A program made the position numbers and the translations under genes. Positions 18,202 through 42,669 of a DNA stretch of 64,000 nt are shown here, piece by piece (within the stretch, counting starts at the first letter, position 1; each line of letters begins with the position of its first letter). The stretch comes from Cyanobacteria bacterium FACHB-471. Lineage in GTDB: Bacteria > Cyanobacteriota > Cyanobacteriia > Elainellales > Elainellaceae. The notes under the pieces were generated by a model. The model was not told the DNA's origin. It searched no databases and saw nothing but the letters and a program-made list of their open reading frames with translations. Location of the stretch: positions 310,001 through 374,000 of the forward strand of contig JACJOC010000058.1 of the NCBI GenBank assembly GCA_014695345.1. The letters are read 5' to 3'.

Positions 18202-19022
18202 CGTTACCGTGCTCTCCTGACTTCTGATTTGGTAGTTCTGCTCGATCGCTTTACGGGAGGAAGGTCGTACTCAACCGGACGAATCAAAGGCTCAAAAAGT
18301 TACCTGCTGTAGAATCTTTTTCTCTACAGCAAACAAACTCCCAGCGGAATTTCTCTGAAGTGAAATGAGCAACAGTAAACCCGCATCTCGTTTCAAACCC
18401 CAAAATGTCCGACTTAACCCCAATTTATTCCGGATGGCAACCCGCTTCCCAGAACAGTGGAATGGTAGATGCACCCTGATTTAACTCCCTAGCTCACTTG
18501 TTTGAGTTGGGGAGTTTTCTTTTGCATAAACCAATCGAAATGCTGCTCACTCAGCGACGACTTGAACTATTAGATTGAACTATTTGAATGATTACAGATC
18601 AATTACAGCTTCAGCTTTACGAATAATCTTAAGCAGGGTAGATACAAGACCTATCCCTACAATCCTCAAAATCATCCTGTTAGAGATGAGGGGTGATACC
18701 CCCCACGATTGAAACCTTAGATAAGGAGATAAGTGAAATCCACAGTGTGCCTCTAATCCAGCAAAACTACGGAGTTTTTAAAGATTTAGTAATGCGGGTA
18801 TAAAGCAGATGTGAGGTACAAATTAAGTTTGCTGAGTGAATATACGACAACCCCAAACGGGTTGTGAAAGGCATATTTTTCATCTCACAAACAAATTTTG
18901 TAGAACGTCAAGATGAACGTTTCACAAGATACCAGTAGGGTCAGTAGCAACAAAGCGGTTGAAGTGCCAAAGCTTTGACAAGCCCTGCTCGCCCAGAGGA
19001 TAAATTTCCTCTCAAAAATTTC
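18202..19022. other. Long intergenic region with an orphan terminator
   Basis: About 820 bases without a supportable protein gene. A plus-strand terminator-like hairpin with a T-rich tail lies at 18483-18523, although no plus-strand gene precedes it: the upstream gene is on the other strand. The region 18300-18480 could therefore encode a small RNA. A short hairpin (ACAACCC/GGGTTGT) is also present near 18848-18866. Confidence 0.45.
18483..18523 (+). terminator. Terminator-like hairpin without a known upstream gene
   Basis: AACTCCC (18483-18489) pairs with GGGAGTT (18510-18516), with an inner CTCA/TGAG pairing, followed by TTCTTTT. It has the form of a rho-independent terminator on the plus strand. 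Confidence 0.6.
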
Positions 19023-41742: not shown

Positions 41743-41786
41743 CTAACGTGCCTTTCCACTTCTCAAAAAGTCTATAACTTATCACC

Positions 41787-41816
41787 TTGACTAAATACCG
41801 TTCACTCAGATATGCT
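41787..41816 (+). promoter_or_regulatory. Sigma-70-type promoter for the leader and small gene
   Basis: TTGACT (41787-41792) and TATGCT (41811-41816) are separated by 18 bases. Transcription would begin near 41823, giving a 5' leader of about 310 bases before the ATG at 42133, long enough to contain the folded element at 41964-42115. Confidence 0.6.
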
Positions 41817-41963
41817 CTCACGTTAAGGTTGTCTTTTTCACTCACGGCAACCCACTAAACCCAAAGATCTAGCGCCGCTCAAAGCTGTGTCCAGCAGCAA
41901 TGAGCGACTAACCCCCAAACTGGTAACAGCAGTCTGGCGGCTAATGGTGAATTTTAACACTCC

Positions 41964-42115
41964 CTTAGCCACCCCGACTTGTCATGTCAAAGAAAGCGTT
42001 GCTGATCCTTTAAGACATGAAAGTGAAAATAAACTCACTTTTAGTTCTCTCACTCACTTATGCAACGTGTGAATTAGTGCGGGGTGGCTAGGTTTTTGGG
42101 GTTTCCTCAAAAACC
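41964..42115 (+). ncRNA. Candidate structured leader RNA (unrecognised class)
   Basis: A 13-pair helix (41964-41976 with 42080-42092, one G-T pair, core TAGCCACCCCG) closes a region of about 130 bases. Inside, 41977-41988 can pair with 42014-42024 (11 pairs, one bulged G), and 42051-42054 with 42076-42079. The segment 42020-42026 can alternatively pair with 42035-42041, which would break the first inner helix. Directly after the closed region, 42091-42101 pairs with 42105-42115 as a stable hairpin just ahead of the ribosome binding site. Mutually exclusive helices and a hairpin by the start codon are the form of a riboswitch or attenuator, but it matches no class I know. Confidence 0.5.
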
Positions 42116-42132
42116 TCAAGGAGTTACAACTC

Positions 42133-42381
42133 ATGTCTCAATGTTTCTTGGAATCTCCCAACGCATCCCCTGTTGAGGGAGAAGTTGCCGCTATCCAAAG
42201 TAGTGAGCGCGATCGCCTGCGAGTTCTCATCATCGGTTCTCGCGATGGTGTAATCGAAACAATTCACGACTTATATCATCGAGGCTTTGCTGAAGTGAAT
42301 GCGTGGAGTCCACTGTTACCTGCACCCAGTTCTGGTGAAGTGATGAGTATTTTGACACGCGATCGGAGAAAGGGAGAGTAG
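42133..42381 (+). CDS. Small conserved cyanobacterial protein, unknown function
   Basis: 82 aa. The centre reads RLRVLIIGSRDGVIETIHDL and is followed by HRGFAEVNAWSPLLPAPSSG and EVMSILTRD. I believe this resembles a family of short cyanobacterial proteins of about 70-85 aa with no assigned function, but I cannot name a domain. It is soluble. An AAGGAG (42118-42123) at good distance supports the ATG start. The long, apparently folded leader in front suggests it is a regulated gene. It is followed by the methyltransferase gene after about 290 bases. Confidence 0.7.
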   Translation: MSQCFLESPNASPVEGEVAAIQSSERDRLRVLIIGSRDGVIETIHDLYHRGFAEVNAWSPLLPAPSSGEVMSILTRDRRKGE

Positions 42382-42669
42382 AAAGAGAGGGAGGAGGGGG
42401 CAATCGCGCCCTCTTCCTTGATTCATTTAACGGATTCTGCACCTCAAGCTCACCCAATCTGATGCACAGATATGAATTCAGAGTAGTCTTCACATCTTTA
42501 TGCCCCAGTAGTCATGAGGTGCTGAGATTCTGAATTTATGCGGAAAGTTTCTATATAACCTCCGCGAGCAGAGGTACTATACGGCTTTCAGTTACCCATC
42601 GGGAGTGTACTTTGGTACTGTTTAGGGGTGGTAAATAATAAGCAGGTGCTAAAGATTTGAGGAGGCGGG

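Follow-up and report, generated by a model that had tools for sequence, protein, structure and literature searches.

The 5' leader of a gene for an 82-residue protein in Cyanobacteria bacterium FACHB-471 carries a large structured RNA that is uncatalogued, has no match in Rfam 15 and often occurs in several copies per genome. Comparison of homologous leaders makes its conserved structure near certain, and we propose that it is an orphan riboswitch-like leader, representing a new family of cis-acting structured RNA, that sets the translation of the small protein, a reading that we regard as probable but well short of secure. All positions given here are those of the window, by which we mean the whole stretch of 64,000 nucleotides that was analyzed.

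Architecture and conservation of the leader RNA

The region from 41950 to 42150 has a predicted minimum free energy (MFE) of -63.6 kcal/mol compared with -41.2 ± 4.1 kcal/mol for 200 dinucleotide shuffles, none of which is as stable (z -5.45, 0/200), and this bears out the claim of an earlier note, made from the letters of the DNA, that a folded leader lies ahead of a small gene. The gene itself was correctly thought to be conserved, as the 82-residue open reading frame (ORF) has matches in 38 of 60 genomes (E ≤ 1e-5), the source genome included. The MFE structure contains a closing helix (UAGCCACCCCG/CGGGGUGGCUA) with inner helices and, immediately 5' of AAGGAG and the ATG at 42133, a hairpin (GGUUUUUGGGG/CCUCAAAAACC). 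The promoter that the note had placed upstream is sigma-70-like and is kept in all 15 aligned copies of the locus from the same genome; the transcript would be read from it, starting at about 41823-41825, so that the whole leader is some 310 nt long (about 41823-42132). What did not hold is the proposed start of the fold at 41964, since the conserved RNA begins near 41827, the repeated unit begins at the promoter and the long-range helix P1 needs sequence further upstream; the fold first described is the 3' part of the leader. The reading of 41964-42132 as a single local fold was dropped because the 15 copies share a longer conserved unit. The features of the locus are as follows.

41787-41816 (+): sigma-70-like promoter, TTGACT (41787-41792), 18-nt spacer, TATGCT (41811-41816); from the sequence
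41827-41852 (+): P0, 5'-terminal hairpin GGUUGUC...GGCAACC; from the MFE fold, similar by eye in many of 17 leaders, outside the covariance model
41860-41873 (+): P1, 5' strand CCCAAAGAUCUAGC; covariation and RNAalifold, placed in the window from copies that lack the insert
41875-41907 (+): P2 (41875-41881/41901-41907) with P2a (41884-41887/41895-41898); strongest covariation of the RNA
41916-41936 (+): P3, CAAACUG...CAGUCUG; covariation and RNAalifold
41939-41970 (+): P4 (GGCUAA/UUAGCC) with P5 (GGUG/CACU, AUUUUA-type loop); P4 from covariation and RNAalifold
41971-42085 (+): P6, ACCCC (41971-41975)/GGGGU (42081-42085); 372 of 380 cells paired
41998-42079 (+): optional P6 extension, formed by the inner helix and competing hairpin of the earlier note; from the 15-copy alignment
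42087-42100 (+): P1, 3' strand GCUAGGUUUUUGGG, common to P7 and extended P6; covariation, local-hairpin and alternative-pairing counts
42091-42115 (+): P7, hairpin of 42091-42101 with 42105-42115; MFE and local-hairpin test
42120-42123 (+): Shine-Dalgarno (SD) sequence GGAG; from the sequence
42133-42381 (+): gene for the 82-residue protein of an unnamed small-protein family with a beta-alpha-beta core; homology and AlphaFold2 model

The long-range helix P1 (CCCAAAGAUCUAGC/GCUAGGUUUUUGGG, 14 pairs) encloses P2, P3, P4-P5 and P6. Its window position was taken from the copies without the insert because the sense match of the model in the window ends at 42014. The insert, the extension segment of about 82 nt in P6, is absent from five of the 15 copies (L041, L042, L046, L051, and L052) and shortened in two more (L048 and L050). 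Hence the inner helix with its competing hairpin is an optional extension that a third of the sister copies do without. Within the P4-P5 region, the complement of the SD sequence is present as ACUCC (41959-41963). Contact between the P2a and P3 loops was considered by eye on the alignment, where some copies fit such kissing and many do not, and it is not claimed here.

The structure is supported by compensatory changes in homologous leaders, the kind of check that the earlier note had called for. Leaders from other genera were fetched via the protein and can be aligned over the whole 5' region. In the MAFFT alignment of 17 of them (A4), RNAalifold gives 37 pairs, 12 with compensatory changes; the structure was fixed at this point and the covariance model R1 was then built. 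The cells of A4 are paired at 91.2%, compared with 87.5% after shuffling and at most 47.4% when the partners are slid, 13 pairs are double-changed (8.3 shuffled, 2-6 slid) and covariation is 0.205 (0.136 shuffled), while one measure runs the other way, with 31 further pair types as opposed to 34.7 in the shuffles. The contrast is larger in A7, the 91-row covariance-model alignment obtained after 40 more regions had been added (90 sense matches and one antisense match, L071; 90 distinct rows). Here 42 of the 46 pairs have double changes (24.5 shuffled, 13-23 slid), double-change cells number 492 (140.6 shuffled, with 0/500 shuffles as high) and covariation reaches 0.398 (0.175 shuffled, at most 0.089 slid); P5 is the weakest helix, with 72.4% of cells paired. 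When column pairs were ranked by a G-test with average-product correction (90 sense rows, 156 columns), structure pairs made up 16 of the top 20 (score at least 30.7), and RNAalifold on the 76 rows of A8 gives 39 pairs, of which 33 have compensatory changes. It should be noted that these last two methods score without the structure but that A5, A7, and A8 are alignments made by fitting to the model.

Alternative helices near the ribosome binding site, as suggested by the earlier note, do exist, but the conserved choice lies between P1 and P7 or extended P6 and not between the helices named there. The 13-pair closing helix of that note is present in the window MFE; it corresponds to P6 extended by pairing of the P4 3' strand with the P1 3' strand, and thus is an alternative to P1 plus P4. 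In A8 most cells retain this alternative (349/375) and also the pairing of the P1 5' strand with the P4 5' strand (267/295), compared with 357/373 for P4 and 429/447 for inner P1. At the variable positions the comparative fold is kept better, with P1 and P4 holding in 68/75 and 61/69 cells and the alternatives in 49/72 and 49/70. For the window copy itself, the two solutions lie 2 kcal/mol apart (MFE -103.3, P1+P4 fold -101.3 kcal/mol). The 11-pair hairpin does stand before the SD sequence, as P7, but it is not separate, as it uses the 3' strand of P1. By their sequences, P7 and P1 have bases in common and cannot coexist. The conservation of P7 was assessed in the 73 leaders, out of 81 with a found ORF, in which the RNA is followed by the start codon at a distance of 24-60 nt. 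Their local P7 hairpins have a mean of -12.55 kcal/mol, compared with -9.90 when the downstream halves are swapped between leaders (the best of 5000 permutations being -10.86) and -7.87 after shuffling of the downstream part. P7 takes in 3 nt or more of the P1 3' strand in 58 of the 73 leaders and fewer in 15, and in some leaders, among them L208, L213, L216, and L223, the SD sequence lies inside the P7 hairpin itself.

Copies, distribution and the downstream gene

In the source genome, the leader DNA has 24 matching pieces, eight of them nearly full length, and the protein has 17 matches; 18 places were taken with their flanks and leader and ORF occur together in 15. The repeated unit spans from just upstream of the -35 box to shortly after the stop codon, pieces of these dispersed copies are 74-92% identical to the window copy, and the flanks are mostly unrelated in appearance, with some upstream sequence common to L042, L047, and L050. 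With 25 candidates scored, R1 finds 22 matches in this genome (E ≤ 1e-4). The window copy comes after a gene that we take to be BamA-like, and this gene is followed by a copy in the relative G001 too, with 87% identity over 241 columns to the locus end; the window copy is therefore old and not a recent insertion. Two further observations concern the copies: many of them have HIP1-like GCGATCGC sites close to their ends, just outside the promoter on one side and beyond the stop codon on the other, and L044 and L046 carry an identical 27-nt in-frame insert within the small-protein gene.

Across the class, R1 detects the RNA in 100 of 388 sampled genomes (E ≤ 0.01), including the source genome, and R2, a model built from 76 sequences, in 102 of 388 (E ≤ 1e-4), representing 50 of 160 genera and eleven family labels. 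In these scans, seven candidates per genome were scored and the copy numbers per genome are thus minimum values. Among 117 genomes drawn separately from the phylum, five were positive, one of them the source genome. Named carriers among the scanned loci are Tychonema bourrellyi, Microcoleus sp. LEGE 07076, Phorm 6, Myxacorys californica, and Oculatella sp. LEGE 06141.

According to a family profile, a member of the small-protein family (E ≤ 0.01) lies within 700 nt downstream in 83 of 90 RNA hits, part of which were originally found via the protein. For the 62 loci brought in by the RNA model searches (L159, L160, L162, L164, L166-L183, and L188-L227), the figure is 55, the seven misses being L178, which is at a contig end, L210, L181, L215, and three loci of the genome G055. 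In eleven further loci, the protein follows the RNA at six from the source genome and is missing from the C76 remnant and from four more G055 loci. All seven G055 loci (L174, L204, L205, and L239-L242) thus lack a family protein downstream, and their RNAs precede HTH-like genes instead; the four proteins scanned gave weak matches below curated cut-offs to HTH_36 (E 1.3e-3), HTH_IclR (3e-4), KorB (6.5e-3), and HTH_23 (0.027). This is apparently a lineage-specific change of partner gene; four family proteins are encoded elsewhere in G055. L181 and L215 (family label f11) have the RNA but no family ORF downstream, and these copies are possibly stand-alone or decaying. Conversely, none of 35 tested loci bearing the protein carries the RNA, a few of them having little upstream sequence. 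In two of the four plasmid loci examined (L186 and L187, from Scytonema plasmids), the protein occurs without the RNA and an HTH-annotated gene lies divergently upstream; L086, L087, L092, and L093 likewise have the protein without the RNA, with similar HTH genes by eye.

With the Sphaerospermopsis member L142 as query, the family was found on 12 plasmids, where its members carry the annotation hypothetical, but not on any phage record, and no relative was confirmed in viral_contigs. Some genomes hold tens of copies, with 43 matches to the family protein in G031. For the protein, nothing significant came from Pfam, NCBIfam, PHROGs, PADLOC, or PDB sequences. Its AlphaFold2 model is confident in the core alone (40 of the 82 residues have a pLDDT of 90 or more), and a Foldseek search of the PDB gave nothing at E ≤ 0.001 (best 0.15). 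Weak ACT-like and ribosomal matches were set aside.

A proposed mechanism and its alternatives

We propose a mechanism in which P1, closing P2, P3, P4-P5, and P6, would form a sensor-like domain, with P7 and the SD sequence directly after it serving as the expression platform. Specifically, the 3' strand of P1 (GCUAGGUUUUUGGG) could pair either far upstream, so that the domain is closed, or locally in P7 or extended P6. In the closed state, P1 together with P4 would exclude P7 and the long P6, and the ribosome site would tend to be freer, while in the open state P7 would hold that site shut, in part of the copies with the SD sequence itself paired, either inside P7 or to the 3' strand of P5. 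A signal that stabilizes or destabilizes the domain would then set translation of the small protein, and from the model we favor a ligand over a protein as that signal and expect the RNA to switch in the cell. Regulation of translation in cis by the leader is likely in this model.

The predicted access of the SD sequence fits translation as the step that is most likely controlled. In the 73 leaders, its mean unpaired probability is 0.139, compared with 0.260 when the upstream part is shuffled (six shuffles each), and it falls below the shuffled value in 56 (p 3e-6). The SD sequence is mostly paired in both predicted states, with unpaired values of 0.18 with P1 on and 0.12 with P1 off; forcing P1 raises access by more than 0.1 in 24 of 73 leaders and lowers it by more than 0.1 in seven (p 4e-4). 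The duplexes of each SD sequence with its own anti-SD in the P5 3' strand average -6.28 kcal/mol, compared with -5.65 ± 0.18 for permuted pairs, the lowest of 5000 permutations (-6.39) being below the observed mean; with one leader per genome, the median z is -2.6 (range -4.1 to -1.0), and 41 of 81 own duplexes reach -6 kcal/mol or lower. The strong anti-SD coevolution that had been expected therefore proved modest in the permutation test. For the window copy, the SD sequence is predicted to be paired in either state; its partner is ACUCC in the shorter fold and a local segment in the longer one. Since the effects on SD access are modest and the window SD is paired in both states, the direction of switching, with the closed domain as ON, is a guess.

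An autogenous leader, to which the small protein or its paralogues together would bind and repress or activate their own translation in the manner of ribosomal proteins, would fit the near-constant pairing of RNA and family protein (83/90) and the small beta-alpha-beta core. We nevertheless consider it unlikely, since the seven G055 RNAs precede HTH-like genes while that genome encodes four family proteins elsewhere, the RNA is absent from all 35 tested protein loci (again with the caveat of short upstream sequence in a few), and the protein has no clear fold match. It is less likely still, and in our view improbable, that the RNA acts mainly in trans or within an RNA-protein particle with the ORF as its partner. 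Such a role would agree with the 22 matches in one genome and with the two f11 loci and the C76 remnant, which have RNA without protein, but it would leave unexplained the spacing of 24-60 nt from the RNA to the start codon in 73 of 81 leaders and the link that P7 makes between the RNA and the SD region, and by eye no terminator was noticed before the ORF.

The 15 dispersed copies, with their 74-92% identity and with homology that stops just short of the promoter on one side and a little past the ORF on the other, could also be seen as a mobile or amplified DNA repeat, in which conservation comes from copying and the fold is a by-product. We give this little credence, as compensatory changes extend over 90 distinct rows, the 15-copy alignment shows by eye no transposase, terminal repeats or target duplication, the G001 copy after the same gene indicates age, and viral_contigs yielded no protein relative. 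Slighter again is the chance of a terminator-type transcription attenuator; alternative hairpins do lie within the leader, but in the window and, by eye, in the leaders inspected, what comes after P7 is an SD sequence and no U-run, and it is the lack of the U-run in the window that makes intrinsic-terminator attenuation unlikely.

If the leader is a riboswitch-like element as we propose, a genome such as this one may hold some 20 sister switches, the majority of them accompanied by a paralogue of their own, and a single signal may set the whole small-protein family, an extension that we offer tentatively and with less confidence than the mechanism itself. The essence of the finding is that an RNA present in roughly one in four of the genomes sampled from the class represents a concrete and testable gap. 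The leader points to a signal and to an unnamed small-protein family, and finding the signal could give both a function. Cyanobacteria could also be engineered with the leader RNA as a native genetic switch, and the alignment and structure suffice for the design of mutants and for transcriptome searches.

Relation to known RNA classes

The claim that the leader resembles no known class, glutamine riboswitches included, has stood up against Rfam. At gathering threshold, Rfam models match the whole window only at a tRNA and at NsiR1, both away from the leader, and do not match any of 20 relatives; from 41750 to 42420 there are five matches at E ≤ 10, all far below gathering. The leader does not reach the gathering threshold of the glnA, Downstream-peptide, cobalamin, Cyano-1, or Cyano-2 models. 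The NsiR1 match lies at 18463-18521 (+) with 60.1 bits (gathering 39); NsiR1 is a nitrogen-stress RNA of heterocyst-forming cyanobacteria, and the closest named relatives of the source genome are Leptolyngbyaceae. The leader RNA is not mentioned in the literature consulted, which covers a part of the journals and includes passages of PMC2864571 and PMC8400943, and a description elsewhere may exist.

Downstream-peptide RNAs precede ORFs of 17-100 residues that belong to no known family (PMC2864571). The RNA described here is, like Downstream-peptide (RF01704) and glnA (RF01739), a cyanobacterial 5' leader, but it differs from them in its long-range P1 of 14 pairs closing four helical domains. 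Both of those are glutamine riboswitches of cyanobacteria and are much shorter RNAs. In being tied to one protein family, the leader resembles the autogenous leaders of the ribosomal-protein type, in which the RNA would always lie before the gene of the binding protein; here that holds for the family protein at 83 of 90 hits, HTH-like genes follow in G055 and the protein lacks a clear fold match. The G+C-rich hairpin followed by a U-run that marks a terminator is not seen in the window or, by eye, in the leaders inspected. In translational riboswitches, P1 is set against a helix that sequesters the SD sequence. Unlike these, the present RNA has 22 matches in one genome and one protein family after 83 of 90 hits, and its ligand is hypothetical. 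Like them, it has a conserved structured domain in a 5' leader, whose transcription is expected from the promoter, and mutually exclusive helices that join domain and platform in 58 of 73 leaders; P1 closes the sensor-like domain, and its 3' strand also belongs to the platform beside the SD sequence.
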